Shown here one piece after another: positions 1 through 18,160 of a DNA stretch of 23,176 nucleotides. The position numbers were made by a program, and so were the translations under genes. The stretch lies in IMG/VR virus record IMGVR_UViG_3300040806_000349, positions 1-23,176 of that record. One strand, 5' to 3'. Every line of letters begins with the position of its first letter. Position 1 is the first letter of the stretch. Source of the stretch: a virus. A model generated the notes under the pieces. That model was not told where the DNA came from. It was given only the letters and a program-made list of their open reading frames with translations, and did not search any database.

Positions 1-582
1 GCCAGCTGAAAAAGATATATCAAAGTCATTTAATTTAGTATAGTAATTACCACTAATAGTTTTATCATTACCATTACCACCAATACTTAATTTTTTATCA
101 TAATCTACAGTTGTTCTAAAATTAATTGCACCACCAACAGCGTCTGCTCCCCAATGAGCACCTTGTGACCCTTTGTATACATCTATTTGTACAACATTAA
201 ACATAAAGTCTTGACCAACATCGTGGGCGCCTGTAGGTGTAGAGTAATCATTGATTGATATTCCATTTAATAATACTAATGTATGATTAGAATTAGTGCC
301 TCTTAAAAACACCGATGATTGTTGACCTGTAGGACCTGATTGAGTTATGTCTAAACCTTGAACATAGTTTAATACTTTAGGTAAATCAATTAGATTATAC
401 TTTTGAATTTCAGATTTTTTAATTGTAAGTGTAGGTGTTATCTTATCACCTAATGCGTTTGAGTTGTTTATGTTTGGATATATTGTAAGACAAGGAATAT
501 CGTCATCCCATTTACAATCATCTTCCTTGGAATAGGCAACATTAGCCCATACCAAGATTAATATAAGAATTAATCTTATCAT
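1..582 (-). CDS. btuB: BtuB-like TonB-dependent vitamin B12 receptor, N-terminal part (runs off left edge)
   Basis: This frame stays open for 194 codons from an ATG at 582 to the window edge, so only the N-terminus is seen. Residues 1-18 are a signal peptide (hydrophobic L/I run, then A-Y-S before K19), which implies export to the outer membrane. Residues about 55-60 (TPTLTI) sit where a TonB box would be. Residues about 65-165 form the plug domain. The stretches LDITQSG, SSVFLRGTN, HTLVLLNGISIN, VYKGSQGAHWG and DAVGGAIN follow the order and spacing of E. coli BtuB's plug (recalled: DITQNG, SSIFIRGTN, LVLIDGVRLN, YGSDAIGGVVN). Known BtuB proteins are 22-stranded barrels that import cobalamin using TonB energy; the barrel here would lie beyond the window. 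The cobalamin riboswitch in its leader independently supports B12 as substrate. Such a gene is unexpected in a T4-like phage. It could serve uptake during infection or alter the receptor landscape. Another TonB receptor specificity is possible but less likely. Confidence 0.88.
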   Translation of the reverse strand, partial: MIRLILILILVWANVAYSKEDDCKWDDDIPCLTIYPNINNSNALGDKITPTLTIKKSEIQKYNLIDLPKVLNYVQGLDITQSGPTGQQSSVFLRGTNSNHTLVLLNGISINDYSTPTGAHDVGQDFMFNVVQIDVYKGSQGAHWGADAVGGAINFRTTVDYDKKLSIGGNGNDKTISGNYYTKLNDFDISFSAG

Positions 583-690
583 GTTGAGTTTCCTTGCTCG
601 TTGTATGGCCTAGGTGGCATTCGGAGTATAACCGTATCAAGTAATCTGGACGAATTTCACGTCACTTTCCCACTACACTTTTAGGCCATT
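583..690 (-). promoter_or_regulatory. Cobalamin riboswitch (env8 hydroxocobalamin / AdoCbl-variant type) controlling the btuB-like gene
   Basis: Read on the minus strand, the leader opens with ATGGCCTA (689-682), which pairs perfectly with TAGGCCAT (612-605) as the closing helix. Between them are GTGGGAAAG and the hallmark stem-loop GACG-TGAAATT-CGTC (663-649), equivalent to the conserved CCGG-UGAAAAU-CCGG element of cobalamin aptamers. A joining segment with ACTTGATACGGTTA and the CCGAATGCCACC strand follow. Downstream, GAG/CTC (599-597 with 588-586) closes a loop, CAAGGAAA, that contains the Shine-Dalgarno AAGGA just before the ATG at 582. CTTG at 641-638 in the aptamer is complementary to CAAG at 596-593, matching the L5-L13 kissing loop that hides the ribosome-binding site in this class. 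Cobalamin binding is therefore expected to switch translation off. From memory the sequence differs from the env8 crystal construct at only a few positions. Confidence 0.93.
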
Positions 691-691
691 G

Positions 692-713
692 TTATATACT
701 ATATAGTATATAA
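692..713. repeat. Perfect 22-bp palindrome overlapping the btuB promoter -10
   Basis: Positions 692-713 read the same on both strands (core TATACTATATAGTATA). The symmetry stops at 691/714. It covers the -10 hexamer of the minus-strand promoter. It could be an operator for a dimeric regulator, or simply a symmetric AT-rich promoter giving a second -10 on the plus strand (695-700). No protein is identified. Confidence 0.55.
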
Positions 714-733
714 TATTTTATCTAAAATGGCAA
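705..733 (-). promoter_or_regulatory. Sigma70-like promoter for the riboswitch/btuB transcript
   Basis: On the minus strand TTGCCA (733-728) and TATACT (710-705) are separated by exactly 17 bases, close to the TTGACA/TATAAT consensus. Initiation would fall near 698-695, just before the aptamer's first helix strand at 689. A host-polymerase promoter, rather than the T4 late motif, suggests that this gene is expressed early. The -10 lies inside a perfect palindrome (692-713). Confidence 0.6.
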
Positions 734-742
734 CTTTCCGAA

Positions 743-750
743 TATAAATA
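743..750 (+). promoter_or_regulatory. T4-type late promoter (TATAAATA)
   Basis: This is an exact match to the T4 late consensus, which in T4 occupies -13 to -6. That convention places +1 at 756, the A of the start codon of the downstream gene, so the message would be leaderless. No Shine-Dalgarno is visible in the preceding 20 bases. Confidence 0.7.
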
Positions 751-755
751 ACTGT

Positions 756-1097
756 ATGGCTGGAATAGCAAACTTAACGATAGACCAAGGGTCCAATTTT
801 ACATACGATTTAGAAGTCACTAATACCGATGGTACAGATTTTGATCTTACTGGATTTACGATGGTTGCTAAAATGTCTAAAGGTTATTCCTCTACATATC
901 CTAGAACATCATTTACTTGTACAGTAACAAATCCTACAGAGGGTGTGGTAACTATAAGTTTAACTGCCGATCAAACAAAAGCTTTAAAGGCAGGTCGTCA
1001 CGTATTTGATGTTGTAGCTACTCACGCTGATAGTACTGTTACTCGTTTATTAGAGGGTATTGTTATCGTAACTCCATCTGTAGTCAAATCTTTTTAA
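756..1097 (+). CDS. Small virion structural-type protein (beta-sandwich-like), function unknown
   Basis: This 113-residue protein has no signal peptide or membrane segment. It is rich in alternating Thr/Val/Asp and reads as an all-beta domain: an N-terminal strand region (NLTIDQGSNFTYDLEV), a hinge at LTGFTMVAKM, and a C-terminal half (GVVTISLTADQTKAL, then GRHVFDVVA). This pattern is familiar from small immunoglobulin-like or baseplate-upper-protein-like domains annotated as virion structural proteins in marine T4-like phages. I cannot assign a more exact role. The start at 756 is favoured because the MAGIANLTIDQG opening looks like a complete N-terminus. It has no Shine-Dalgarno and sits directly on a late promoter. 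Its 3' end overlaps the convergent glycosyltransferase/methyltransferase gene by four bases, with no terminator between them. Confidence 0.75.
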   Translation: MAGIANLTIDQGSNFTYDLEVTNTDGTDFDLTGFTMVAKMSKGYSSTYPRTSFTCTVTNPTEGVVTISLTADQTKALKAGRHVFDVVATHADSTVTRLLEGIVIVTPSVVKSF

Positions 1098-2470
1098 GCA
1101 AGATATTCAAATACTGCTTTGTTCATACCTTTGTTAACAAGTTTAAACTGTGCTTTAGTCATAAAGCTTTCTAGAGTAGCCCAATTTAAACCACTTATAT
1201 CGTCAAAAACCCATACAGTTTGATCTGCTTTTCTTTGATTAAAGAATACTGCTTCTTTTAAAACACTTTTTGTATCATGTGGACCGTCAAAGTGTATCAT
1301 TTCATATTTGTCTATCATTCTTTTATATTCATCATAGACAGGATAACCATTAGCAAAACTATTCATAAATTCTGAATCTTCTAGATTTACAAGATGAAAC
1401 TCTGGATAATCTTCAGCAAAATTTATTAGCGTAGTTTTTCTCATTAAATTATCATAGTTAAATTTTCTGGCTAATACACTATCAGAAGCTGCATAGTCAA
1501 TATTACCATATGGATCAACACCTAAATGAACAAGACTAGTATTAGGATGATAATGTCTGTATGCGTCTATAATAGTTTTACTTCCTAGACCTAATCTAAC
1601 ACCAATCTCCATACTTTGACCAATAGGATTTTTTAATCTTTGTACTGCTTCTGCTAATGAAGTATATTCTACACTATCACCAGTAAATTTTTCTCCTTCA
1701 TTTACTTCTAGTGAATATTTTCCAGTTTTAGGATCAATACCTGGATAAACTCTACTAACATCTTTTGCAGTCTTATCAATAAATCTAGTATCTTTTTCAC
1801 CTTTGCCTTCAACTTCTTGAACATAAGTTTTTTCAATAGGTGGTTTTTCTTCAAACATATTACGATTATCCATAATTTGTCCTACTTCAAATGTACTGTT
1901 ACCTGTGTGTCTACAACGTATTGTAGTATCTGCCCATATTTTAAAACCTTTTGCTCTTGCTTTTCTACAAAAGTCAACATCTTCAGATAATGTATTATTA
2001 TGATCAAGTGCTGAATGATATGTGTATTGAGGATAACCAACTTCTCTAAATACTTTTCCTTTAATAAGGGCACAACCCATACCACAACCAACTATTTCTA
2101 AAAACGGAGTATCTTTAACTTTTACCCAAGGAATACGTCTAGAACCACCGTTATTAGAAGCTTCATAAATTTCTAATGAGTGTGTTCCTGGTATTCTTTG
2201 AATATAAAGACCTGATACAATATCTACATCATGTGCTAACATTTTAACTAGTGTATCTTTATCAAAAGATATATCACTATCTACTGAAAACAAATAATCA
2301 TAATGTTCTCCCCATTTAGCAATTAGATTTCTAATTTGATCTACTTGATAACCAAAAAAGAATTGAAATTCAACTTTGTATCCTTCTGGTATTGTAAGAT
2401 CATATATCGCTTTGTATGTTTCTGGTTCTATATACTTGTTTGTTGGTATTGCTATTAATACTTTTTTCAT
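1094..2470 (-). CDS. Two-domain enzyme: GT-A glycosyltransferase fused to a SAM-dependent methyltransferase-like domain
   Basis: The protein has 458 residues. Residues 1-200 look like a GT-A glycosyltransferase: a beta-strand start (KKVLIAIPTN), then VDSDISFD with a DxD metal/nucleotide-sugar motif at D64-D66, and the acceptor-side acidic motif SEDVDFC near 162-168. Residues about 270-458 resemble a class I methyltransferase. EIGVRLGLGS (288-297) fits the glycine-rich SAM loop, HFDGPHD (393-399) resembles the HIDGxH motif of Methyltransf_24-type enzymes, and VFDDI (421-425) is a following acidic strand. A charged linker joins the halves. The likely reaction is sugar transfer followed by methylation of the glycan or of its protein or lipid carrier; the substrate is not evident. 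The start overlaps the stop of the upstream glycosyltransferase gene (ATGA), indicating translational coupling. The two genes lie antisense to the structural genes. Confidence 0.78.
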   Translation of the reverse strand: MKKVLIAIPTNKYIEPETYKAIYDLTIPEGYKVEFQFFFGYQVDQIRNLIAKWGEHYDYLFSVDSDISFDKDTLVKMLAHDVDIVSGLYIQRIPGTHSLEIYEASNNGGSRRIPWVKVKDTPFLEIVGCGMGCALIKGKVFREVGYPQYTYHSALDHNNTLSEDVDFCRKARAKGFKIWADTTIRCRHTGNSTFEVGQIMDNRNMFEEKPPIEKTYVQEVEGKGEKDTRFIDKTAKDVSRVYPGIDPKTGKYSLEVNEGEKFTGDSVEYTSLAEAVQRLKNPIGQSMEIGVRLGLGSKTIIDAYRHYHPNTSLVHLGVDPYGNIDYAASDSVLARKFNYDNLMRKTTLINFAEDYPEFHLVNLEDSEFMNSFANGYPVYDEYKRMIDKYEMIHFDGPHDTKSVLKEAVFFNQRKADQTVWVFDDISGLNWATLESFMTKAQFKLVNKGMNKAVFEYLA

Positions 2471-4497
2471 TGTTTCATTATCCTATTCGCATTTTTGGTT
2501 TGTTCGTCTCCGTTAATTTTATAATCGTTTAAAGGATTTATATCATTATAATTATATATTATATCTGATACAACTTTTACCTTATCTGGATCAGCTTGTT
2601 CTATGAGTGAATAAAATATAGAACCGTCTCCGCCAGCTTTGTACCAGTTTTTGTTTTCGTCTTGGAAATTACTGTCATCAATATCATTTAAAAGTCCTGC
2701 TTTAAATGTTCTCAAATGTGTGTATGGCATGTTCCAATTAAATTTGTATTTTCTATATTCTTTCTTTTGTTTTATTTCCTCTGGATAGTTTTGTGCTATC
2801 AAAGGTATTCTATCAACCATTGAGTAACAAGACCCATAGGTAAATTCTGTAGTGCCGTCATAAAGATTATTGTAAAAGTGAAGTATCTCATTATCATTTA
2901 TAAAAGAATCATCACCATCTAAAAACATAACAATGTCATCTTCTTTACAATATTTTCTTATAGACTCTATTTGATTTCTAACAGCGCCTTTATTTTCTTC
3001 ATTACGAATCACTTTTATTTTATCACTTTCCCATTGTTTGGCAATGTTGTAAGTATTATCTGTAGAGGCGTCATCAATTACAATCATTTCATAGTTATCA
3101 TAATCTTGTGAGACAACTGATTCAATACAGTTGCTAATATATTTTTCAGAGTTGTAAGTAGGAGATATTATAACTATCTTTTGTTCTACTTTTCTTGGTA
3201 AATAATTTTCTTCTATATTAGTAAATCTTCTACCAAAAACTTTTCTAACTCTAGAATTTATATGACATACTTTTCTATATTCTTCTTTTGATAAGTAATT
3301 TCCTAATTGTCTATATAGATGTTGTTTCCATTGTAAGGCTACAGAGTCCCAACCTACAATACCTTTAATTTGATTACAAGCATATTGTTTTTGTTGATGT
3401 AAATATCTATTATGATGAGCCATTAATACAGTGTTGACAAATTTATCTACTTGTTTCTTTTTTGGTATCCATGGAAATAAACCATTAGGTTCTATTGCAT
3501 AATCTATTAAGTAACAAGCTTCGTTTACTGCTGTTTCTTCTAAAGCACCAAAACGTGTAGTGATTAAAGGAGTGTTATATGCTATTGCTTCTAAAGATGA
3601 TATACCAAATGTTTCAGGAAAAGCACCTGGAAATAATTTATAACTTGCTCTTTCTAATATATCTGCTATTTCAGATTGTTTTATAACACCTGTAAATTCT
3701 ATACCTAAATTTTTATTTTTAGGATCATTTGACATTTTAGTCCATTCTTTTCCTTGAGCGTCTAACTCTTGTCCTGGAAAAACATAAAAACCACCAATAC
3801 ATATTAGTTTAGCTTCAGGTATTTTTTCTTTTATTTTTGGCCATATATCGTTAACTAAAGGTGCCATACCTTTTGTGAAAGCTGCATTGAAAACATATAA
3901 GTGTGGGTCTTTCTTTCTTATATCAACATCATTTTTATAAGTTACTATTCCATTTCTAGTTTGAAAAAATTTATGTTTTAATACTTCCATGTTTCTTCTT
4001 TTACCATGGTCACAATTCATCACATAAGTTGAATGAAAATCTGATAAAGTAAATACTTCATCTATATGCCCTTGTATTAAAAGGTCTTCTAATATAAGAT
4101 CGCCGTTTGCAAATGTGTCATGCATCCAAACTGCTTTATGTCTAGCATTAGCTGTGATTGCTGAATATCTTTGAGGATTATATCCTTCAAACTGTTTATA
4201 TAAGTTAGGTGTTATGAAAGGAATTATAGTTCTTAATGAAATTACAATATCAAATTTGAAATCACTTTTATAATCTAAAATAGTATTGTCAAAATATTGT
4301 ACACCATCATAAGTGCCTTCTCTTGCGAGTTTTGAGTCTTTATTACAGTTGTTGAAAATAGTTACTTTGAAACCTAACTTTGTTAGTTCTTTGGCCATCA
4401 AGATAGTCGCAGACTCGCTACCACCAAGGCCTCTTTTCTTTAATGTATCTCCGTCATACGGAAGACCAATTATATCTAAAAATGCAATAGAAATCAT
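2467..4497 (-). CDS. Bifunctional glycosyltransferase: GT4 (GT-B) domain followed by GT2 (GT-A) domain
   Basis: The protein has 676 residues and two recognisable catalytic modules. Residues 1 to about 410 are a GT-B enzyme of family GT4: the N-terminal GLGGSES loop (23-29) that contacts the acceptor or sugar, a mid-protein Rossmann strand (AKLICIGGFYVF), and the donor-binding EX7E signature at E295 and E303 within PGAFPETFGISSLEA. Residues about 440-676 are a GT2 domain: KIVIISPTYNSEKY opens it, VIDDASTDNT carries the first aspartates (475-476), and FLDGDDSF carries the DxD (527-530). It therefore probably adds two sugars in sequence. No membrane segment is visible, so it should act in the cytoplasm. 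A late promoter lies 29 bases upstream, and its stop overlaps the next gene's start. The target may be host surface glycan or phage fibre protein; the sequence does not decide. Confidence 0.88.
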   Translation of the reverse strand: MISIAFLDIIGLPYDGDTLKKRGLGGSESATILMAKELTKLGFKVTIFNNCNKDSKLAREGTYDGVQYFDNTILDYKSDFKFDIVISLRTIIPFITPNLYKQFEGYNPQRYSAITANARHKAVWMHDTFANGDLILEDLLIQGHIDEVFTLSDFHSTYVMNCDHGKRRNMEVLKHKFFQTRNGIVTYKNDVDIRKKDPHLYVFNAAFTKGMAPLVNDIWPKIKEKIPEAKLICIGGFYVFPGQELDAQGKEWTKMSNDPKNKNLGIEFTGVIKQSEIADILERASYKLFPGAFPETFGISSLEAIAYNTPLITTRFGALEETAVNEACYLIDYAIEPNGLFPWIPKKKQVDKFVNTVLMAHHNRYLHQQKQYACNQIKGIVGWDSVALQWKQHLYRQLGNYLSKEEYRKVCHINSRVRKVFGRRFTNIEENYLPRKVEQKIVIISPTYNSEKYISNCIESVVSQDYDNYEMIVIDDASTDNTYNIAKQWESDKIKVIRNEENKGAVRNQIESIRKYCKEDDIVMFLDGDDSFINDNEILHFYNNLYDGTTEFTYGSCYSMVDRIPLIAQNYPEEIKQKKEYRKYKFNWNMPYTHLRTFKAGLLNDIDDSNFQDENKNWYKAGGDGSIFYSLIEQADPDKVKVVSDIIYNYNDINPLNDYKINGDEQTKNANRIMKQ

Positions 4498-4525
4498 TTA
4501 TTTAAATTATCAACTCACTACAGTT

Positions 4526-4537
4526 TATTTATAAATA
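4526..4537. promoter_or_regulatory. Bidirectional T4-type late promoter (palindromic TATTTATAAATA)
   Basis: TATAAATA occurs on the minus strand at 4533-4526 and on the plus strand at 4530-4537. The two copies share four bases in a perfect 12-bp palindrome. Using T4 spacing, minus-strand transcription would start near 4520, giving a 22-base leader to the glycosyltransferase gene. Plus-strand transcription would start near 4543, giving a 71-base leader to the first fibre gene. Confidence 0.65.
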
Positions 4538-4613
4538 TACTATAACAGAATATTAAAAAAATGTCAATGCTTGGACATTAAAATAAAAATATGAGGGAAA
4601 TAAGTATCGCAAT

Positions 4614-6665
4614 ATGCCAGTAATTCAAAACGCTAGTGTTCGTGTCGGCCTAGGACGTATAGGTTATACAGGATCAGGAGGTCCAACAGGTTTTACAGGT
4701 TCCAAAGGGGATCCAGGGGCTGCCGGATCACCAGGTGGTTATTCAGGTTCACAAGGTTTCACAGGATCACGTGGTGAACAAGGTCCAGGTGGTGGTTACA
4801 CTGGTTCAGTAGGTGCTGTAGGTTTTACAGGATCCTCAGGAGGTTTAGGGTACACAGGTTCATCTGGTACAGTTGGTTTCACTGGCTCAACAGGAGTAGG
4901 TTATACAGGATCAAAAGGTGCTGACGGATCAGATGGTGCTGTTGGTTTTACTGGTTCTACCGGAGCAGGATATACAGGATCAAAAGGTGACGCAGGCTCA
5001 GATGGTGCCGTAGGTTTTTCAGGATCAAAAGGAGATACAGGTTCACAAGGTATACAAGGTGTAACAGGTTTTTCAGGATCAAAAGGAGATACTGGTACAG
5101 CAGGCGCTATAGGATATTCAGGATCAAAAGGAGATACAGGTTCACAAGGTATACAAGGTGTAACAGGTTTTTCAGGATCAAAAGGTGACGCAGGCTCAGA
5201 TGGTGCCGTAGGTTTTACAGGATCAAAAGGTGATCAAGGTGTAATAGGTTTTTCAGGTTCAAAAGGAGATACAGGAACAGCAGGTGCTGATGGTTCAGAT
5301 GGTGCCGTAGGTTTTACAGGATCAGTTGGTATAGGTTACACTGGTTCAGCAGGTGCCACAGGTCCTCAAGGTCCAGGTGGTGGTTATACTGGTTCAGCAG
5401 GTGCCGTAGGTTTTACAGGATCAGCAGGATCAGGAGGAGATTCTCCTTTTGTATTTACAACTTCAGGAGATTATAGAACACTTACAGGTTATATAGAAAG
5501 TGGTGTAACAAGTACAGTTAGAACAGCAGAATTTTCAGGTGATCTTTTAAGATTAACTTTAGCAACTTTTACTCCTACATTTTCAGCTTCATCAACTCCA
5601 AGTTCATCATTAAATTGGGATGTTCCTTGTACAGGATTTTCTGTATCAGTAGATAACCCTAGTGATGTCACAAACGATTTTATAAGTTCAGTTTACTCTA
5701 TCACTCAATCAAGTGGAAGTGTTAACGGTACTTTAAGTAATTATTCAGCAGGTAGTTATTCACAAACACCAGCAGGTGGTGTAGATTGGAATCAAACTTT
5801 TACTGTAGACAATTCAAGTTCATATATTAGACCAATATCAACTAGTCGTACTGGAGGTTCGGCTGGTGCAACAATTAAATTTAATCATAATGACGGCAGT
5901 GAATCAGAATATACAGATTCAAATACAAGTTTTTCTGTAAACTGGTCAACAGCGTCTATGAGTTTATCTAAAACTAATGTTAGCGGAAAAACATTTTTAA
6001 AATCTTATGCTAGTACATCGTACTCTACTAGCACAAGTGGTATATCAAATTCAAGTAACACTTCACATGCTTTAACAGCAAGTGGTGGTTCTTTGAGTAC
6101 AAATTCAGGAAGCGGATATGTGAGTGGGACATTTACATTTACATCACCTATACACAAAGACAATACAAGCGATACACGTACTATCTCAAATACGTGTACG
6201 TTTACAAGACCTGTTGATGTAACAGGTTCCTCATATACGACAGATCAGTCGTCAACAACAAGCAACATATCTGCTTCATTTACGTATCCGTCTTTCTGGA
6301 TCTGGACAACAGGAGTAGGAACTACTCCAACACTCTCCGATATAATAGATGATTCAACATCTACAGGTTTTGAATCGGCAGTTAATCAGTTGTCAGATCA
6401 AACAAGAACATTTTCAGTACAATCAGTTACTAATTCAGATTCTAATCCTAGGGCATTTTGGTTTGCTGTTAGAAATTCAGCGTCTCAACCTGGTACATTT
6501 AAAACAGGTGCAAGTGCAGGATTATTAAGTGATGTTAGTACAACAGATGGTGGAACAATTACACTAGTACCTGATTCACCATTATCAGGACAAACAGGAG
6601 AAAGTTATCATTTATATGGATTTACTTTACAACCAGGAACAACTTACGTGGAGATAGGAGCATAG
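4614..6665 (+). CDS. Collagen-like tail fibre protein with large Ser/Thr-rich C-terminal domain
   Basis: The protein has 683 residues. After a 16-residue head (MPVIQNASVRVGLGRI), residues 17-275 are nearly continuous Gly-X-Y triplets built from GFTGS, GYTGS, GFSGSKGD and GIQG units. Collagen-like repeats of this kind form trimeric triple-helical shafts in phage fibres. Residues 276-683 are beta-rich, extremely rich in Ser, Thr and Asn, and low in charge. They end in LYGFTLQPGTTYVEIGA, a type of ending I associate with marine phage fibre proteins. The protein is presumably a tail or side fibre that contacts the host surface. GAGGG (4593-4597) is the only Shine-Dalgarno-like sequence and sits 16 bases from the ATG, longer than usual. 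It is first in a fibre operon and divergent from the glycosyltransferase genes. The Ser/Thr-rich parts are plausible glycosylation targets, which is inference. Confidence 0.85.
   Translation: MPVIQNASVRVGLGRIGYTGSGGPTGFTGSKGDPGAAGSPGGYSGSQGFTGSRGEQGPGGGYTGSVGAVGFTGSSGGLGYTGSSGTVGFTGSTGVGYTGSKGADGSDGAVGFTGSTGAGYTGSKGDAGSDGAVGFSGSKGDTGSQGIQGVTGFSGSKGDTGTAGAIGYSGSKGDTGSQGIQGVTGFSGSKGDAGSDGAVGFTGSKGDQGVIGFSGSKGDTGTAGADGSDGAVGFTGSVGIGYTGSAGATGPQGPGGGYTGSAGAVGFTGSAGSGGDSPFVFTTSGDYRTLTGYIESGVTSTVRTAEFSGDLLRLTLATFTPTFSASSTPSSSLNWDVPCTGFSVSVDNPSDVTNDFISSVYSITQSSGSVNGTLSNYSAGSYSQTPAGGVDWNQTFTVDNSSSYIRPISTSRTGGSAGATIKFNHNDGSESEYTDSNTSFSVNWSTASMSLSKTNVSGKTFLKSYASTSYSTSTSGISNSSNTSHALTASGGSLSTNSGSGYVSGTFTFTSPIHKDNTSDTRTISNTCTFTRPVDVTGSSYTTDQSSTTSNISASFTYPSFWIWTTGVGTTPTLSDIIDDSTSTGFESAVNQLSDQTRTFSVQSVTNSDSNPRAFWFAVRNSASQPGTFKTGASAGLLSDVSTTDGGTITLVPDSPLSGQTGESYHLYGFTLQPGTTYVEIGA
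4662..5438 (+). repeat. Collagen-coding tandem repeat tract
   Basis: These are imperfect direct repeats of 9-45 bases encoding Gly-X-Y triplets. One long unit (facaggttttt-type, ending in GGATCAAAAGGAGAT) recurs near-exactly at about 5019-5060 and 5139-5180. Similar tracts occur at 7003-7560 and 8677-9045. They are coding, not CRISPR: units vary in length, stay in frame and have no unique spacers. Confidence 0.85.
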
Positions 6666-6666
6666 T

Positions 6667-8160
6667 ATGGCTACAAATTACGATGGTCTAACACGAAACG
6701 TCTGGCCAGGAACATGGAGTACCGGCACTAACTCGCCTATCGTTATAGATACGGAAGTTAGAGGTACACTTCAAAGTATTTCTGGTGATAGTGGAGATAG
6801 ATTAACAGATATTCCAGGTGCAAGAATAACAGAGGGTATGTTAGTATATGTTAAAAACGGATATACTTCAGGTTCAACTACATACACAGCAGACAAATAT
6901 TATACTTACAAACTTCAAGGTAGTGAAGTACGTAGTAGTGTTACAGGTGCAGTGCCAAATGCCGACGCCAACTGGTCATTATTCAGTGTTGGTGGTGGAT
7001 CAGGTTATACAGGATCAGCCGGCGCTATAGGTTTTACAGGATCAGCAGGTGCTGTAGGTTTTACAGGATCAGCAGGCGCTATAGGATATTCAGGATCAAA
7101 AGGTGATCAAGGTACTGTAGGTTTTTCAGGTTCAAAAGGAGATATAGGATATTCAGGATCAAAAGGAGATACTGGTACAGCAGGCGCTATAGGATATTCA
7201 GGATCAAAAGGAGATACTGGTACAGCAGGCGCTATAGGATATTCAGGATCAAAAGGTGATCAAGGTGTTATTGGTTACACAGGTTCAATAGGTTTTTCAG
7301 GATCAAAAGGAGATATAGGATATTCAGGATCAAAAGGAGATACTGGAACAACAGGTGCTGATGGTTTAGATGGTGCTGTAGGTTTTTCAGGTTCAAAAGG
7401 AGATATAGGATATTCAGGATCAAAAGGTGATCAAGGTATAATTGGTTATACAGGTTCAAAAGGTGATCAAGGTGATCAAGGTGTTATTGGTTACACAGGT
7501 TCAATAGGTTTTTCAGGATCAAAAGGTGATCAAGGTATAATTGGTTATACAGGTTCAGAGGGAAATTTAGATATAGCAGTTGCTTCAACTCCTCCAGTTT
7601 CAGCAGGTATTGGTGATGTTTGGATTGATGACGCAACAGGTATTCAATACTTCTACATGAACGATGGTAACAGTAATCAATGGGTAGAATTAAGTAACCA
7701 AGGTGTTGTAGGATTTACAGGTTCAGCTGGTGCTAGTACGTTATCTTCTCTTACAGACGTAACTATTAGTACACCACAAAAAGGCCATACTTTAGTTTAT
7801 GATGGTTCAGGTTGGGTACAAACACAAACTCCAATTTCACAATTTGTTGTAACAGCCAATGGTTCAAGTGCATACAGATTTGATGGTGCAGGATTCCCTA
7901 GTACGAGTGGCGATAATCCTACTATCTACCTTAAAAAAGGTCAAACATATTACTTTAGAAATACAACTAGTGGACATCCATTTAGAATACAATCTACTAC
8001 AGGTACAGGTGGAACAGTATATGATACAGGTGTTACTGATAATAACGCCTCAGGATCAACAGGTGTAGTTATATTTCATGTTCCTATGAGTGCTCCTGCG
8101 ACATTATACTATCAATGTTCATCGCATGGTTCTATGGTAGGAACAATTACTATAGTTTAA
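6667..8160 (+). CDS. Collagen-like fibre protein with C-terminal cupredoxin-like domain
   Basis: The protein has 497 residues in four parts. Residues 1-112 are a globular head (MATNYDGLTRNVWPGTW at the start, YVKNGYTSGSTTYTADKYYTY later). Residues 113-298 are Gly-X-Y triplets. Residues 299-350 are a small module (GDVWIDDATGIQYFY, QWVELSNQGVVG) also present in the next fibre gene. Residues about 390-497 resemble a cupredoxin: beta strands around IYLKKGQTYYFRN, SGHPFRIQ and YYQCSSHGSMVG. H437, C484, H487 and M490 reproduce the four type-1 copper ligands, with C-x2-H-x2-M spacing as in amicyanin. Whether copper is bound is unknown, and the fold may be purely structural. Its ATG follows the previous stop by one base, with GGAG motifs at 6652-6661 as ribosome-binding site, so it is co-translated with the preceding fibre. 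Confidence 0.85.
   Translation: MATNYDGLTRNVWPGTWSTGTNSPIVIDTEVRGTLQSISGDSGDRLTDIPGARITEGMLVYVKNGYTSGSTTYTADKYYTYKLQGSEVRSSVTGAVPNADANWSLFSVGGGSGYTGSAGAIGFTGSAGAVGFTGSAGAIGYSGSKGDQGTVGFSGSKGDIGYSGSKGDTGTAGAIGYSGSKGDTGTAGAIGYSGSKGDQGVIGYTGSIGFSGSKGDIGYSGSKGDTGTTGADGLDGAVGFSGSKGDIGYSGSKGDQGIIGYTGSKGDQGDQGVIGYTGSIGFSGSKGDQGIIGYTGSEGNLDIAVASTPPVSAGIGDVWIDDATGIQYFYMNDGNSNQWVELSNQGVVGFTGSAGASTLSSLTDVTISTPQKGHTLVYDGSGWVQTQTPISQFVVTANGSSAYRFDGAGFPSTSGDNPTIYLKKGQTYYFRNTTSGHPFRIQSTTGTGGTVYDTGVTDNNASGSTGVVIFHVPMSAPATLYYQCSSHGSMVGTITIV
7003..7560 (+). repeat. Collagen-coding tandem repeat tract
   Basis: These are in-frame direct repeats encoding GYSGSKGD, GDTGTAGAI and GDQGVIGYTGS units. A 45-base unit (GATACTGGTACAGCAGGCGC followed by TATAGGATATTC and GGATCAAAAGG) is repeated head to tail at about 7168-7257. 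It also occurs almost verbatim in the preceding gene near 5089-5130, which points to recombination or duplication between the two genes. Confidence 0.85.
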
Positions 8161-8204
8161 TTAAAAACTATTGTATTATTAACAGATTTGAAGAAGAATT
8201 ATAT

Positions 8205-8212
8205 TATAAATA
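8205..8212 (+). promoter_or_regulatory. T4-type late promoter (TATAAATA)
   Basis: This is an exact late-promoter octamer in the 153-base gap between two fibre genes. T4 spacing puts +1 at 8218, giving a 96-base leader for the gene at 8314. Confidence 0.75.
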
Positions 8213-8217
8213 GATGT

Positions 8218-8241
8218 AGAAAAGAAAAAAAAGACTTTTCT
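8218..8241 (+). promoter_or_regulatory. 5'-terminal stem-loop of a late leader
   Basis: AGAAAAG (8218-8224) pairs with CTTTTCT (8235-8241) around a ten-base A-rich loop. The stem starts exactly at the predicted transcription start. A 5'-terminal hairpin of this kind can protect an mRNA from decay; that role is inferred. The rest of the leader to 8313 is A-rich, with a Shine-Dalgarno (AGGAG) about 10 bases before the ATG. Confidence 0.45.
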
Positions 8242-8313
8242 TGCAAGAATTATATGATAAAGAATTGAATTTTTAAATTTAAAAAAACAATAATAAATTA
8301 GGAGACAACAAAA

Positions 8314-9327
8314 ATGGCAATTAACTTTCCAAGTAGTCCCGCATTAAATGACATATACACTCTCGGTACAAGACAGTGGAAATGGAATGGTAATGGCTGG
8401 GCTCTACAACCTCTTACAGCGGGTTTCACTGGATCAATCGGTTATACTGGTTCTAAAGGTGATATCGGGTATACAGGTTCTAAAGGGGATACTGGTTTAG
8501 GCTTCAACATTGCGAAGACATACACTAGTGTCGCTAACTTAACAGCGGATACAAGTCCATCAGGCATTAATACTGGTGAATTTGCTATCATTGAAAACGG
8601 CTCTTTAACAGACGCCGAAAATTCTAGATTATACCTATGGAACGGTTCAGCATACTCATTCGTATCTGACCTTTCAGGTACAATTGGTTTCACAGGATCT
8701 TTTGGTTACACTGGATCTAAAGGGGATCAAGGTGTTATAGGTTACACTGGTTCTAAAGGGGATCAAGGTGTTATAGGTTACACTGGTTCTAAAGGTTTCA
8801 CAGGATCAAAAGGTGACATTGGTTACACTGGTTCTAAAGGGGATCAAGGTGATATAGGTTACACAGGATCAAAAGGTGACATTGGTTACACTGGTTCTAA
8901 AGGTTTCACAGGATCACAAGGTGACATTGGTTACACTGGATCAAAAGGTGACATTGGTTACACTGGATCTTTAGGTTTCACAGGATCAAAAGGTGATATA
9001 GGTTACACAGGATCAAAAGGTGACATTGGTTACACTGGATCTGAAGGTAATCTTGATATCACAACTTCATCTACTCCGCCAACATCTGGCGTAGGCGAAG
9101 GTGATATTTGGGTAGACAGCGCAACTGGTGTACAATACTTTTACTACAACGATGGTAACAGTACACAATGGGTAGAGCTTTCTAACCAAGGTGTTGTTGG
9201 ATTTACAGGATCACAAGGTGCTCAAGTAGACACTGTTGATTCAAGTAACTTCAGCTCAGCTGTAACTTTACTAATCAAAAATAGTTCAGGTACTACATTA
9301 AAAACAATCATAGGTAACGCTACATAA
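8314..9327 (+). CDS. Collagen-like tail fibre protein with conserved INFPSSP head module
   Basis: The protein has 337 residues. Residues 1-36 form a compact head (INFPSSPALNDIYTLG, then RQWKWNGNGWALQPL) nearly matched by the large fibre gene at 10429. This suggests a common attachment or folding module. A short Gly-X-Y block (37-62) is followed by a globular insert with GEFAIIENGSLTDAENSRLYLWNG, as seen in phage structural proteins. A long Gly-X-Y shaft of GYTGSKGD units (122-244) leads to the small GDIWVDSATGVQYFY module (about 250-295) shared with the previous gene, and a short tail ends in TTLKTIIGNAT. It has its own late promoter and a good Shine-Dalgarno. Its repeat codons (GGTTCTAAAGGGGAT) differ from the GGATCAAAAGGAGAT dialect of the two upstream fibres, so its shaft probably expanded separately. 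Confidence 0.85.
   Translation: MAINFPSSPALNDIYTLGTRQWKWNGNGWALQPLTAGFTGSIGYTGSKGDIGYTGSKGDTGLGFNIAKTYTSVANLTADTSPSGINTGEFAIIENGSLTDAENSRLYLWNGSAYSFVSDLSGTIGFTGSFGYTGSKGDQGVIGYTGSKGDQGVIGYTGSKGFTGSKGDIGYTGSKGDQGDIGYTGSKGDIGYTGSKGFTGSQGDIGYTGSKGDIGYTGSLGFTGSKGDIGYTGSKGDIGYTGSEGNLDITTSSTPPTSGVGEGDIWVDSATGVQYFYYNDGNSTQWVELSNQGVVGFTGSQGAQVDTVDSSNFSSAVTLLIKNSSGTTLKTIIGNAT
8677..9045 (+). repeat. Collagen-coding tandem repeat tract
   Basis: This is a direct-repeat tract with highly regular GGTGACATTGGTTACACTGG units encoding GDIGYTGSK. It is the most uniform of the three collagen tracts and therefore the likeliest to have expanded recently. Confidence 0.85.
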
Positions 9328-9360
9328 TAAGTAGAGCAAATTAAAAGGAGAAAATAAATT

Positions 9361-10290
9361 ATGGCAACAAGAAACCCATTAGTATACAGCAGTGGAAATC
9401 TAGTTGAAATGACTTCAGCTCAAGTTGACGCAGTTATAGATAATATTGTTTATCAATATTCTTTATCGCCGTCAGTTACGTTATCAGTAGTAGGTTCAAG
9501 TGGCTCTTTAGGAGCAATTTCTGATACAAGATTACAAGCAGGTGCTATTTCTAATAGTTCTACTAGTTTTCCAGGATCAGGTACAACACAAGACCCTCAA
9601 ACTGTAACAACAAACTATGATAAAGTAAGTCAAACAGTTGCTTCGGTTACGCCGACAACTGATACAGGTACAACATGGCCGGTATACTACACAAGTGGTG
9701 GTGAAATTCATGCTATGCCTTTAGCAGATATTAAGGATACGTTCTTACATCCTGCTATTGATTTACTTACAGCAAGTACAACTACAACGCAACAAGGTGG
9801 TACATATTTTGTATCATCTTCAGCGTCTGTTAGTGGTGCTACTGAAGTTAGTGGTTCAAACACACCTATATTCATTGACACAAGAGCCAACACTGGCGCT
9901 TATGCTGCTGGATCTATAGGTGACCACGCACAAGATAACCCAACTACGATTACTAGTTACTATTTACAGAGAGTAAATGGTGCTACGTCATCTTACGAAA
10001 ATCTATTAAATATAGACGGTACAACTCACTTACAACAAACTGGTTCATCTTTTGATACTTTGTGTCAAGAGTGGATTAGAGCGACTGCAAGTGCTTCAGT
10101 AGACGGATATACGATTAGATACAACTTTAATGGTTCAGGTACTACAAGAGGTACAGGTATGGCTAACACTATACTTGATGGCTCTAGTTACAATACTAGA
10201 CAAGTTGGTGATGACTATAGAGCGCAAGAGTTTCCAGCAGGTTCGGTAACGACAGCTGCAACTCACACGCTAAAGATTGTTAAAGCATAA
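9361..10290 (+). CDS. Virion structural protein of marine T4-like phages, unknown role
   Basis: This 309-residue protein lacks collagen repeats and starts MATRNPLVYSSGNLVEM, a type of opening I associate with virion structural proteins of cyanophages and pelagiphages. A short helix-prone segment (SAQVDAVIDNIVYQYS, 20-35) is followed by a Ser/Thr/Gly-rich middle (42-105). A more globular region follows, with WPVYYTSGGEIHAMPLADIKDTFLHPAIDLL and TPIFIDTRANTGAY, and a beta-rich end (YTIRYNFNGSG to HTLKIVKA). It may be a baseplate- or fibre-associated protein, judging from its neighbours. The start has AAGGAGAA about nine bases upstream. It is the last gene before a strong intrinsic terminator, closing the transcript from the 8205 promoter. 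Confidence 0.7.
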   Translation: MATRNPLVYSSGNLVEMTSAQVDAVIDNIVYQYSLSPSVTLSVVGSSGSLGAISDTRLQAGAISNSSTSFPGSGTTQDPQTVTTNYDKVSQTVASVTPTTDTGTTWPVYYTSGGEIHAMPLADIKDTFLHPAIDLLTASTTTTQQGGTYFVSSSASVSGATEVSGSNTPIFIDTRANTGAYAAGSIGDHAQDNPTTITSYYLQRVNGATSSYENLLNIDGTTHLQQTGSSFDTLCQEWIRATASASVDGYTIRYNFNGSGTTRGTGMANTILDGSSYNTRQVGDDYRAQEFPAGSVTTAATHTLKIVKA

Positions 10291-10318
10291 TAATCTATAG
10301 TAATCAAAGGTGCAAAAT

Positions 10319-10352
10319 TAACCCCCGGAGCCTAGGTTTCGGGGGTTTTTTA
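10319..10352 (+). terminator. Strong intrinsic terminator
   Basis: AACCCCCG (10320-10327) pairs with CGGGGGTT (10340-10347) around a 12-base loop, followed by an uninterrupted T run to 10351. This is the strongest GC hairpin in an otherwise AT-rich window. It ends the 8314-9361 transcript just before the next promoters. Confidence 0.9.
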
Positions 10353-10377
10353 TTGGAAAATAACTTGTTTAAAATGT

Positions 10378-10394
10378 TATAAATATTATAAATA
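10378..10394 (+). promoter_or_regulatory. Tandem T4-type late promoters
   Basis: Two exact TATAAATA octamers occur at 10378-10385 and 10387-10394, nine bases apart. T4 spacing gives starts near 10391 and 10400. Leaders of 38 and 29 bases would precede the large fibre gene, whose Shine-Dalgarno is AAGGA at about 10413. Confidence 0.75.
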
Positions 10395-10428
10395 TGGTGA
10401 TAGAACAAATAGAAGGAACAAAATTTAA

Positions 10429-12900
10429 ATGCCAACAATAAACTTTCCATCAGGTCCGTCTCTAAACGATACATATAATTTAGGTTTACGTACATGGAAA
10501 TGGAATGGGGACGCATGGGCTTTAGAACCATTAACAGGTGGATTTACAGGATCACAAGGTTATACAGGATCAGTTGGTATAGGTTATACAGGATCAGTTG
10601 GTATAGGTTACACTGGTTCATCAGGTTATACAGGATCTAATATTGTTTTATTAGACGAAACACAAACTTTAACAAATAAAACACTTACAACACCAGATGT
10701 TAATACATCATTGAAAATGGTTAGTAGTGGACAATTACAATTCAGAGATAATCAATCGTATATTTCAGAAAATGGTGGAATTTTGTTATTTAACGGAGCG
10801 GCAGGACGTGGAGTTAGAATGTATTCTGCCGGTGCTGAAAGAGTTGCTGTAACATATGCTGGTGACTTAGAATTAAAAGCAGGTACAGATATAATCTTTG
10901 AAGGATCAACAGCAAACGATTTTGAAACAACACTAACGGTTACTGACCCAACAGCAGACAGAAATATAACATTACCTGACTCAAGTGGTACAGTTGTACT
11001 AGCAGACACTACTGACACATTAACAAATAAAACACTTACTAGTCCAAACATAAACGAAGCAGTTGCGTTGACTGCTACTGCTACGGAACTTAACTATTTG
11101 GATGGTGTTACTGGTATTACATTAGGTACTGCTAACGAATTACTTGTTGTTGGTAGTGATGGTTCTAGTATTGCAAGCGATAGCACTTTAGCAGTTGATA
11201 CTAGCAATAATAGATTAGGTATCAATCAATCCTCACCTGAAGTAACATTACATATGACAGGCGAAGATGCTCAAACAGCACAAATTCGTATGGAACAGTA
11301 CAATGATAGTGCTGACGCTCCAGATGTAAGAACAAGAAGATACAGAGGTACAATTGCCTCACCAAGTGCCGTATCATCAGGCGATTATCTATTTAGAAGT
11401 AACCACGAATACTATAATGGTTCATCACTTATTGTCGGTGGTAGTTTTGCTTTTGATAACACTAACAATGCCAATAGAACACAGTTTGCTGTTTCAGTTA
11501 ACACAGATGGTACATCAGCGGATCCTAATATCGCAAGTAAAACACAATTTAAGATTGATGGTAATGATAGTGGTGCTATTACATTCAACAACGCATACAA
11601 GTTTCCAACAATTGATGGTAACGCTAATCAAGTTTTAAAAACAGATGGTTCAGGAAATTTATCTTTTACAGATGTTTCTGGTGGATCTGGTGGAACTTCT
11701 TGGCAATCAACTATCGTAACAGGAACAACTTTAACAGCAGTAGCTGGAAATGGTTATTGGATTAACACAACATCAAATGCTTGTACTGTTACACTTCCTG
11801 CTTCAGCAAGTGTTGGAGATTCAATTCAAATAGTAGATTACGCAGGTACTTTTGCCACAAACAATATTACATTAACTTCTAGTTTAAATATAGAAGGTGG
11901 AACAAGTGATAAATTTTTAACTACCAACAGAGAAGGCGTAACCATAACTTACGCAGATGCTACTCAAGGTTGGGTTGCAACATCTGGAGTTAATTCAGGC
12001 GACCAAGGAATAGACCCAACTAATTCAGCTATTATAGCAGACTTTTTAGTTATTGCTGGAGGTGGTGGGGGTGGCTCAAGTGGTCAAGTTGATACAGCTG
12101 GTGGTGGTGGAGGTGCTGGTGGTTACAGAAATTCTTATTCCACAGAAAGTTCTGGTGGAGGTGGTTCTTCTGAAACATCTTTAAATTTAACTACTGGAAC
12201 AACTTATACAATAACAGTTGGTGCTGGTGGTGGAGGTGGTGCAGGAGGAGCTGCTGGCTCAGTTTGGAATCAAGGTGCTACTGGTTCTAATTCTATTATA
12301 TCTGGTTCTGATATTACAACAATTACTTCATCAGGTGGTGGTGGAGGTGGAACATATTATGATGGTGGTATTGCTGGTGGTTCTGGTGGTGGTGGAGGTG
12401 CTTTTACTGCTCAAACAGGTGGAAGTGGAACATCTAATCAAGGTTTTTCTGGTCAAACTACTTCTTCTCAAGGACAAAATTCAGGTCAAATAGCTGGTGG
12501 AGGAGGTGGAGCTTCTGAAGCTGGAGGTACAGATGGTGCTGGTCATGGAGGAGATGGATTATCTTCTTCTATAACTGGTTCGTCAGTATCTAGAGGTGCT
12601 GGTGGTGGAGGTGCTGGAAACGTATCAAGTAGTGGAGGAACTGGTGGAGGTGGTGATGGAAAAAATTCATCTGGAGCTGGTAATGGTACTGCTGGAACAA
12701 CAAATACTGGTAGTGGTGGAGGTGGTGCATATACAGGCAATTCAGGTAGTCATTCAGGAGGAGCAGGAGGTTCAGGTGTCGTAATTTTAAGATTACCAAC
12801 ATCACAATATTCTGGCACAACAACAGGTTCTCCAACTGTTACAACAGATGGAACAGACACAATATTAATTTATAACGCAAGTGGGAGTTACACAGCATAA
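10429..12900 (+). CDS. Large tail fibre with polyglycine-rich adhesin-like C-terminal domain
   Basis: The protein has 823 residues. Residues 1-36 repeat the INFPSGPSLNDTYNLG / WKWNGDAWALEPL head of the fibre at 8314. A short Gly-X-Y piece (38-70) follows. Residues about 75-240 carry two LTNKTLT(S/T)P modules and ATELNYLDGVTG, common in phage fibre shafts. Residues 240-540 include GNANQVLKTDGSGNL and a beta-rich region before FLVIAGGGGG. Residues 544-784 are dominated by GGGGGAGG-type runs. Residues 785-823 end in VVILRLP and LIYNASGSYTA. Glycine-rich tips recall the polyglycine sandwich of T-even gp38 adhesins. This domain is probably the receptor-binding tip, which is inference. Its stop overlaps the ATG of the next gene (TAATG). 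Confidence 0.83.
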   Translation: MPTINFPSGPSLNDTYNLGLRTWKWNGDAWALEPLTGGFTGSQGYTGSVGIGYTGSVGIGYTGSSGYTGSNIVLLDETQTLTNKTLTTPDVNTSLKMVSSGQLQFRDNQSYISENGGILLFNGAAGRGVRMYSAGAERVAVTYAGDLELKAGTDIIFEGSTANDFETTLTVTDPTADRNITLPDSSGTVVLADTTDTLTNKTLTSPNINEAVALTATATELNYLDGVTGITLGTANELLVVGSDGSSIASDSTLAVDTSNNRLGINQSSPEVTLHMTGEDAQTAQIRMEQYNDSADAPDVRTRRYRGTIASPSAVSSGDYLFRSNHEYYNGSSLIVGGSFAFDNTNNANRTQFAVSVNTDGTSADPNIASKTQFKIDGNDSGAITFNNAYKFPTIDGNANQVLKTDGSGNLSFTDVSGGSGGTSWQSTIVTGTTLTAVAGNGYWINTTSNACTVTLPASASVGDSIQIVDYAGTFATNNITLTSSLNIEGGTSDKFLTTNREGVTITYADATQGWVATSGVNSGDQGIDPTNSAIIADFLVIAGGGGGGSSGQVDTAGGGGGAGGYRNSYSTESSGGGGSSETSLNLTTGTTYTITVGAGGGGGAGGAAGSVWNQGATGSNSIISGSDITTITSSGGGGGGTYYDGGIAGGSGGGGGAFTAQTGGSGTSNQGFSGQTTSSQGQNSGQIAGGGGGASEAGGTDGAGHGGDGLSSSITGSSVSRGAGGGGAGNVSSSGGTGGGGDGKNSSGAGNGTAGTTNTGSGGGGAYTGNSGSHSGGAGGSGVVILRLPTSQYSGTTTGSPTVTTDGTDTILIYNASGSYTA
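12058..12779 (+). repeat. Polyglycine-coding GGT/GGA-rich tract
   Basis: Irregular runs of GGT and GGA codons encode four- to six-glycine strings separated by short variable Ser/Thr/Asn loops. Local composition is far more G-rich than the flanks, and the antisense frames are artefactually open. It encodes the presumed adhesin tip of the large fibre. Confidence 0.8.
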
Positions 12901-16528: not shown

Positions 16529-18160
16529 ATGAGTGAAGCATATTTAGGGAATCCTAACCTTAAAAAGGTTAATACTCCTGTTGAATACTCACAAGATCAA
16601 ATAGTAGAATACCAGAAATGTGCTGGCAATCCAATATACTTTATGGAAAAATATATCCGTATTGTATCTCTTGATGAGGGTCTTGTGCCTTTTAAAATGT
16701 ATGGATTTCAAAAAGATATTGTTCAAAAAATTCACGATAATAGATTTACTATATGTAAACTACCAAGACAATCAGGAAAATCTACAACAACTATTTCTTA
16801 TCTATTGCATTATGCATTATTTAATCCAAACTCTAACATAGCCATACTTGCAAACAAAAGTTCTACTGCTAGAGATATATTGGGTAGACTGCAACTTGCA
16901 TATGAAAATTTACCAAAATGGTTACAACAAGGTGTAATAAACTGGAACAAAGGTAATATAGAATTAGAAAATAAATCTACCATTGTTGCGGCTGCCACTT
17001 CTTCAAGTGCTATTCGGGGTGGTTCATTTAATATTATCTTTCTTGATGAGTTTGCTTTCGTACCTACTAACATTGCTGAAATGTTTTTTAGTTCAGTTTA
17101 TCCTACAATATCTGCTGGTACAAGAACTAAAATGATTATAGTATCTACACCTTATGGTATGAACATGTACTATAAGATTTGGATGGACGCTATCAATAAA
17201 AAAAATGATTACATTCCTATAGAGGTACATTGGAGTGAGGTGCCAGGCCGTGATGAAGATTGGAAAATACAAACAATACGTAACACAAGTGAAGAACAAT
17301 TCCAACAAGAGTTTGAGTGTGAGTTTTTAGGTTCTGTAAATACTTTAATATCAGCTTCTAAAATTAAGGCAACGCCTTATATAACACCTATAAAGTCTGC
17401 TCAAGGCGTTGACATATATGAAGATAAAAAAGAAGGACACACTTATGTGGCTGCTGTTGATGTATCACGTGGTGTAGATAAAGATTATTCTGCCTTTTTA
17501 GTATTTGATGTAACTAGTATGCCTTATAAAGTTGTAGCAAAATATAGAAGTAACGAAATTAAACCTTTTGTATTTCCTAATATAATATCTAGAGTTTGCT
17601 TAGCATATAATCAAGCACATATATTAACAGAGGTAAATGATATAGGCCAACAAGTGGCTGAAGCCTTACAATTTGAAATTGAGTACCCTAATTTATTAAT
17701 GACAACACAAAAAGGTCGTGCTGGTCAAATATTAGGTGCTATGTATAGTGGTCGTGGTTCATCTATGGGTGTTCGTATGACAAAATCTATTAAAAAAGTA
17801 GGTTGTTCAAACTTAAAAACATTAATTGAGGGAGACAAAGTTGTTGTTAATGATTTCAATATCATACAGGAGATGTCAACATTTACTAAAAGAGGTCAAA
17901 GTTGGCAGGCCGAAGACGGTTCCAATGATGATTTAATGATGTGTTTAGTCATTTTTGGTTGGTTATCTAATCAACCTTATTTTAAGGAGTTGACAAATAC
18001 CAATGCACGTTTAAAAATGTATGAGGAACAAAAGAATTTGATAGAACAGGACATGGCACCATTTGGTTTTGTAGACGATGGAGTGACTGATCCTGAAGAC
18101 GAGGAAGTAGTTGATGAGTACGGTACCAGATGGTTTCCTGTTTCTAGAAAGGGACAATAG
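16529..18160 (+). CDS. gp17: Large terminase subunit gp17 (packaging ATPase-nuclease)
   Basis: The protein has 543 residues (T4 gp17 has 610). The N-terminal ATPase has Walker A KLPRQSGKSTT (77-87), Walker B IIFLDE (169-174) with catalytic E174, and the coupling motif STP (206-208). The C-terminal RNase-H-like nuclease starts AAVDVSRGVDKDYS with D311. E368 or D371 (LTEVNDIG) and D467 (SNDDLMM) complete the acidic triad corresponding to T4 D401, E458 and D542. It cuts concatemeric DNA and pumps it into the prohead through the portal gp20. It is shorter than T4 gp17, mostly at the N-terminus. The gene is uninterrupted, with no intron or inserted endonuclease. Confidence 0.97.
   Translation: MSEAYLGNPNLKKVNTPVEYSQDQIVEYQKCAGNPIYFMEKYIRIVSLDEGLVPFKMYGFQKDIVQKIHDNRFTICKLPRQSGKSTTTISYLLHYALFNPNSNIAILANKSSTARDILGRLQLAYENLPKWLQQGVINWNKGNIELENKSTIVAAATSSSAIRGGSFNIIFLDEFAFVPTNIAEMFFSSVYPTISAGTRTKMIIVSTPYGMNMYYKIWMDAINKKNDYIPIEVHWSEVPGRDEDWKIQTIRNTSEEQFQQEFECEFLGSVNTLISASKIKATPYITPIKSAQGVDIYEDKKEGHTYVAAVDVSRGVDKDYSAFLVFDVTSMPYKVVAKYRSNEIKPFVFPNIISRVCLAYNQAHILTEVNDIGQQVAEALQFEIEYPNLLMTTQKGRAGQILGAMYSGRGSSMGVRMTKSIKKVGCSNLKTLIEGDKVVVNDFNIIQEMSTFTKRGQSWQAEDGSNDDLMMCLVIFGWLSNQPYFKELTNTNARLKMYEEQKNLIEQDMAPFGFVDDGVTDPEDEEVVDEYGTRWFPVSRKGQ

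Follow-up and report, generated by a model that had tools for sequence, protein, structure and literature searches.

A cobalamin riboswitch precedes a BtuB-like receptor gene

We analysed a window of 23,176 nucleotides (positions 1 to 23,176 of IMG/VR virus record IMGVR_UViG_3300040806_000349), whose minus strand encodes the first 194 aa of a BtuB-like TonB-dependent receptor (582-1; PF07715), truncated at the window end. The divergent neighbour on the plus strand is a tail-fibre-assembly-like protein (756-1097; PHROG 1084/3304; 49.6% to a Mosig tail fibre protein), and the receptor leader carries a full-length AdoCbl-II cobalamin aptamer (687-607, minus strand). Running cmscan on the full window matched this aptamer to Rfam family RF01689 at 75.2 bits (E = 2.2e-17), which meets the terms of family membership, with a gathering score of 36.5 bits and all 81 model positions (1-81) covered. 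RF00174 is absent from the cmscan list, but it belongs to the same clan as RF01689, and cmscan retains just the better of two clan members; two further matches, with E up to 1, both fell well under their gathering scores.

The anatomy of the leader, all on the minus strand, can be read directly from its letters. A perfect 8-bp closing helix, P1 (689-682 with 612-605), encloses the hairpin GACG-TGAAATT-CGTC (P4; 663-649), which lies within the Rfam match. Three pairs (599-597 with 588-586) make up the P13 hairpin (599-586), whose loop contains both CAAG (596-593) and the Shine-Dalgarno sequence AAGGA (595-591), 8 bases before the receptor ATG (582-580). The L5 loop sequence CTTG (641-638) is complementary to CAAG (596-593) and is proposed as its kissing partner on complementarity alone, without covariation. 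Because a fourth loop-loop pair (638-596) would disrupt the U-G pair closing Rfam's P5, we regard three pairs (641-639 with 595-593) as the clean core. An earlier note, made without database searches, had described a cobalamin aptamer at 583-690 with this closing helix, hairpin and pair of complementary loops, and had placed the Shine-Dalgarno sequence inside the kissing loop; its coordinates and each of these claims held, while its four-pair CTTG/CAAG kiss held only in part, being complementary throughout but clean over three pairs.

The best promoter candidate is a sigma70-like TTGCCA-17-TATACT (733-705, minus strand; 10/12 consensus matches), from which a transcript would begin ~10 bases before the aptamer; a second candidate site (726-698; 9/12 matches) overlaps it. 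Promoter-like pairs in the region were not above chance (4 found vs. 2.7 +/- 1.7 expected). The plain fold energy of the leader was also not unusual (z = -0.97, with 35/200 shuffles as good), so free energy alone provides no evidence for a riboswitch and was dropped from the argument. The leader is a genuine, well-placed member of a known cobalamin riboswitch class.

The window comes from a T4-like phage

The plus strand of the window encodes a series of T4-type proteins, namely a large terminase (16529-18160; domain and PHROG matches; Mosig 77.1%), a tail sheath (18277-20202; domain match), a tail tube (20224-20751; domain match) and a portal protein (20831-22351; PF07230, E = 1e-183; Mosig 76.4%), and its neck and sheath stabiliser proteins are T4-type as well. 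Terminase and portal are closest to those of Pelagibacter phage Mosig (77% and 76%), followed by those of Melnitz of OM43 (65% and 62%). Mosig, Melnitz-1 and HTVC008M are listed as Kyanoviridae, and the Mosig listing shows the same T4-type genes. The structural genes and the kinship to Mosig bear out the earlier claim of a T4-like phage, and from gene content and nearest named phages, in the absence of a formal classification, the window very likely represents a marine T4-like, Kyanoviridae-like phage. SAR11 or OM43 are possible hosts, inferred from phage kinship only; SAR11 has been called B12-auxotrophic, and the B12 regulation of its btuB has been called unknown (PMC9296465).

Neither RF01689 nor the plug domain was found in the complete genomes of Mosig, Melnitz-1 and HTVC008M, and at the riboswitch side of its tail-fibre counterpart Mosig carries a hypothetical gene followed by a metabolic gene block. 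The glutamine riboswitch of Melnitz and Mosig (PMC9004378) resembles the present case in belonging to Kyanoviridae phages of streamlined marine bacteria, but it has another ligand and another gene, and the complete Mosig and Melnitz-1 genomes are without RF01689.

Two other regions of the window are recorded here as observations in their own right. Several ORFs with collagen-like GYTGSKGD repeats lie between 4614 and 9327 and are probably tail fibres, judged from the ORF list only, and two genes on the minus strand (1094-4497), beside the tail genes, carry methyltransferase-like and glycosyltransferase domains.

The receptor resembles BtuB and is under purifying selection

Comparison with solved structures matched the receptor best to BtuB, whose chains took the first six places among eight PDB matches (E = 2e-23 at best, vs. 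6e-4 for FecA), consistent with the earlier description of a BtuB-like receptor. This match falls mostly on the plug (48-171), the only domain that Pfam detects in the receptor. Since the receptor (L009) scored under both NCBIfam BtuB cut-offs (TIGR01779, 97.6 of 599.7 bits; NF007926, 91.8 of 836 bits), we name it only "BtuB-like". A structure model (AlphaFold with 12 sequences, pLDDT 33.8) was too poor for structure search.

Among relatives of the receptor, the frame is open throughout in all 21 sequences (20 loci plus the window), 14 of which contain a complete gene of 535 or 543 aa. Nei-Gojobori dN/dS values lie between 0.07 and 0.23 (11 sequences; printed pairs with pS above 0.05 and computable dS), and the receptor is thus under purifying selection. 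In the receptor of contig L039, synonymous sites are saturated relative to L009, yet the protein remains 86% identical.

Six GenBank phage records matched the receptor, at 18-21% coverage and 30-40% identity; three are Salmonella records, two are "Acinetobacter phage MD-2021a" records annotated btuB_1, and one is unannotated. Plasmid matches were found in 93 of 72,556 records, none of them reaching 60% identity or 80% coverage, and a search of bacterial genome contigs with two 7-residue patterns only returned no receptor relative.

The leader is likely of the env8 type

Env8 (PDB 4FRN and 4FRG), which comes from a marine metagenome, and env2 belong to the same Rfam class as the window leader. 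The earlier note had gone further and identified the leader with env8, from which it was said to differ at only a few positions. To place published env8 residues on the window we number them as n = 688 minus the window position. A9, G12, U13 and U69 are parent residues of point mutations in the A-tag (PDB 4FRN; PMC12138973), and G19, A20 and A68 are numbered env8 residues with roles in the pocket (PMC11838749). All seven match the window in register, which occurs in only 8 of 46,132 registers across both strands of the window, with pocket residues G19 and A20 falling at 669-668 and A68 at 620 (minus strand). According to PMC7689651, adenosylcobalamin is occluded by A20 and A68, and env8 has a marine metagenome as its source.

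In env8, ligand-driven docking joins L5 to the loop of P13, where the ribosome-binding site lies (PMC10907184), and the kissing loop contains a mismatch and a bulge (PMC10653944). The window leader has parts corresponding to this description, with its ribosome-binding site likewise in the P13 loop and L5 likewise complementary to L13. It differs by two counted positions from the haplotype of contigs L006 and L015, which is presumed to equal the 4FRN sequence. From residue register and anatomy, without a comparison to the full 4FRN sequence, we consider the leader likely to be env8-type; it is the seven published residues that support the identity, while the number of differences claimed earlier is unverified. 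Env8 has been known without a gene or a genome, whereas the window leader has both. The label "Env8" in PMC6775973 is that of an unrelated phage genome.

Env8-type leaders recur across viral contigs with compensatory changes

A first pattern search found the leader in 20 IMG/VR contigs, and a separate search by receptor alignment returned 31 viral contigs, of which 26 carry an env8-type leader, one (L039) carries another AdoCbl-II leader and four (L038, L044, L045 and L049) carry no riboswitch. A wide leader pattern then gave 39 stretches in IMG/VR, each in a separate contig; 29 have A at position 20 (27 close ones plus L082 and L090) and ten have G. In all, the env8-type leader is present in 29 other IMG/VR contigs. 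All 11 newly found contigs scored above the Rfam cut-off, at 78-85 bits. The leaders of L082 and L090 retain G19, A20 and A68, although 18 and 21 of their 107 columns, respectively, depart from the window. Some contigs are near-duplicates, so leader counts do not represent independent events. A BLAST search of GenBank phages with the leader returned 16 records matching 8-14% pieces of the query (best E = 6e-4), which we took as AT-rich chance.

In an alignment of the nine distinct leaders, 92.9% of cells can pair, vs. 24-49% when the alignment is slid by 1-3 positions. Five pairs changed on both sides (four of the eight pairs of P1 and one in P13, where G-C becomes A-U in L090), a number reached by none of 500 shuffles; the first seven leaders alone gave two such pairs, both in L033, with 9/500 shuffles as good. 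Pocket residues, loops and Shine-Dalgarno sequence are intact in all nine. Two of Rfam's pairs are unpaired in every one of these leaders, and since the three loop-loop pairs are invariant, covariation is silent on the kissing interaction.

Leader and gene start appear to move together

Comparison of individual loci revealed a mosaic around the receptor start. Contigs L016 and L044 are 86-100% identical up to about -118 and 92-100% identical from about +80 of the gene onward (50-column steps). In between, L016 carries an env8-type leader that L044 lacks, and over the interval from about -118 to +30 L016 matches L009 at 94-100% identity, although the rest of the two genes differs at 44% of synonymous sites. 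The end of the second promoter hexamer is separated from the ATG by 5 or 10 bases in the four loci without a switch; this distance is 111-122 bases in L037, L016 and L009, and 184 in L033. The difference in spacing, together with the comparison of L016 and L044, shows the same receptor in leaderless-like and switch-controlled forms. It is likely that leader and first codons move as one recombined cassette, which appears to have replaced a leaderless-like gene start in one phage group.

Other cobalamin riboswitches in viral contigs

Cobalamin riboswitches in viral contigs extend beyond the env8 type, with a second AdoCbl-II type in ten contigs and a third in three, several of them located before a DUF6580 gene and a BtuB-like receptor. 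The second type (L039/L084-type) has a G at position 20, where the env8 type has A, in its ten contigs, and the L039 leader is identical to the window in 43 of 81 columns; we ruled out a classical RF00174 identity for this leader, as it matches RF01689 at 82.9 bits. Within the G type, L039 and L079 have the leader before a receptor like the window's, while L078, L081, L084, L085 and L088 have it before DUF6580 and receptor, and the L089 record shows both DUF6580 and receptor domains near the leader; contigs L083 and L086 end too early to show either. Scanning with a general cobalamin pattern gave seven stretches distributed over six contigs; of these contigs, four pass Rfam (L064, L065 and L066 as RF01689, L061 as RF00174). 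In L065 the switch is followed by DUF6580 and then by a receptor whose match to BtuB covers 65-621 (E = 3e-36). Like the window, the L039/L084-type and L064/L065-type leaders are RF01689 members before B12-uptake-like genes, but they have a longer 3' part and often precede DUF6580. In the env8-type contig L090, DUF6580 precedes the leader.

T4-type hallmark genes were detected in part of these riboswitch records, with a portal in 2/8 (L084 and L089) and a terminase in 2/7 (L086 and L066). Neither was found for L082 (172 kb), L090 or L079, and no T4-type terminase was found for L039, where the portal was not tried.

As a separate observation, the DUF6580 membrane protein sits beside a BtuB-like receptor under AdoCbl-II leaders in L084, L088, L078, L081, L085 and L065, a gene neighbourhood suggesting that DUF6580 takes part in B12 uptake. 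In L061 (3181-5387), the RF00174 riboswitch (93.9 bits) precedes an anaerobic ribonucleotide reductase gene, NrdD, near a large terminase gene.

A model for vitamin-gated receptor synthesis and its rivals

The reading we prefer is that an env8-type class II riboswitch of a marine T4-like phage controls translation of a phage BtuB-like receptor, which is likely, in the absence of ligand or expression data. Its parts are shown: an aptamer, a hairpin bearing the Shine-Dalgarno sequence, loops complementary to each other and a receptor gene, all in a phage context, with recurrence in other viral contigs, compensatory base changes and a receptor under purifying selection. The steps that would join them are inferred. 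Counting against this reading are the low BtuB scores of the receptor, the lack of variation in the loop-loop pairs, the four receptor contigs without a riboswitch and the absence of both switch and receptor from the complete Mosig, Melnitz-1 and HTVC008M genomes. During infection, host RNA polymerase would transcribe the leader. At low cobalamin the P13 loop would be free, ribosomes would bind AAGGA and the receptor would be made, and the infected, probably B12-dependent cell may then import more cobalamin via its own TonB and inner-membrane transporter; no such uptake system was seen among the window genes examined. With cobalamin bound, by analogy with env8 studies, L5 and L13 would kiss, hiding the Shine-Dalgarno sequence and stopping receptor synthesis. 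Given the presence of A20 and A68, the ligand is predicted to be hydroxo- or methylcobalamin rather than adenosylcobalamin, with binding itself inferred. The phage B12 feedback during infection proposed in the earlier note likewise remains an inference from anatomy, with no ligand, expression or infection data behind it. The E. coli btuB riboswitch is comparable in being a cobalamin switch before an outer-membrane B12 receptor, but unlike the one described here it is adenosylcobalamin-selective (PMC12870672) and lies on a bacterial chromosome.

The least secure step is the benefit, which we can only guess to be B12 for host methionine and one-carbon metabolism during phage DNA and protein synthesis. 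The idea that cobalamin is imported for a B12-dependent ribonucleotide reductase found no support; among 12 viral records, which are fragments, two encode a large ribonucleotide reductase, and both of these enzymes pass the class Ia cut-off but not that of NrdJ.

Several rival explanations can be weighed against this model. The locus could be a bacterial cassette recently derived from a host, or a chimeric assembly, with env8 itself being bacterial. Bacteria indeed often have cobalamin riboswitches before btuB, one is present in OM43 strain H5P1, which is host to a relative of the window's phage (PMC9004378), and a bacterial home of the leader is not excluded in the absence of a valid leader search of bacterial genomes. 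Against this, the leader-receptor pair recurs in 26 of the 31 viral receptor contigs with up to 44% synonymous difference, the two 7-residue patterns found no receptor relative in bacterial genome contigs, and plasmid matches all stay below 60% identity with none covering 80%. We consider a recent bacterial origin unlikely, while an old one is not excluded.

It is also conceivable that the leader does no regulating, being either a relic or stuck in a single state. The four of 31 receptor contigs without a leader speak for this, and with a promoter hexamer 5-10 bases before the ATG they indicate that control is dispensable; however, pocket, loops and Shine-Dalgarno sequence are intact in 9/9 leaders, and both P1 and P13 show compensatory changes, which makes a non-regulating leader very unlikely. 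Alternatively, the riboswitch may work while the receptor serves another ligand or superinfection masking, B12 being a mere cue. BtuB-like proteins serve as phage receptors, and the missed NCBIfam BtuB cut-offs leave room for another role, but BtuB is by far the best solved match, and related switches precede DUF6580 and a receptor whose match to BtuB spans 65-621 at 3e-36, so we hold this alternative to be unlikely as well.

Returning to the preferred reading of riboswitch-controlled receptor translation, a bolder joint version would make env8 a virus RNA and its leader a portable B12-control module, moved between Kyanoviridae-like phages by recombination and placing a formerly leaderless receptor gene under vitamin control, with several phage groups gating B12-uptake genes by three AdoCbl-II leader types; on balance we lean toward this version, by a modest margin. 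Within the searches made, the phage home, the apparent mobility and the recurrent riboswitch-gated B12-uptake genes in viral contigs seem new. We found no report placing env8 or an AdoCbl-II riboswitch in a phage in the open-access literature searched, with most subscription journals outside its reach.

Crystal structures, the Riboglow RNA-imaging tag and work on drug design all build on env8, which the same papers describe as a metagenome sequence or as bacterial (PMC10907184, PMC11838749, PMC12930364). If our reading is true, a phage home would give env8 a gene, likely hosts and a natural variant set that includes switch-less versions of the gene, and phages would gate vitamin B12 import by sensing B12. 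A previous survey reported no riboswitches among the pelagimyophages and cyanomyophages that it covered (PMC7029224), a picture that a phage env8-type switch would extend or correct.

Additional elements in related contigs

Two related contigs carry further elements of note. In L033, a structured element of ~65 nt (983-1049; fold z = -2.42, with 3/200 shuffles as good) lies between the promoter and the env8-type aptamer. It has no Rfam match up to E = 5 and was found by pattern only in the contigs of L033, L034 and L035, and the TGGCCGG in its hairpin loop is a possible pairing partner for CCGGCCA, which lies immediately 3' of the closing helix. In L039, the region 512-12296 is dense in host-like genes, identified by eye from the ORF list, such as small heat-shock-like, ClpS-like, ferredoxin and SufE-like genes, along with a ThyX-like gene after the receptor and PstS-like and KdsA-like genes.
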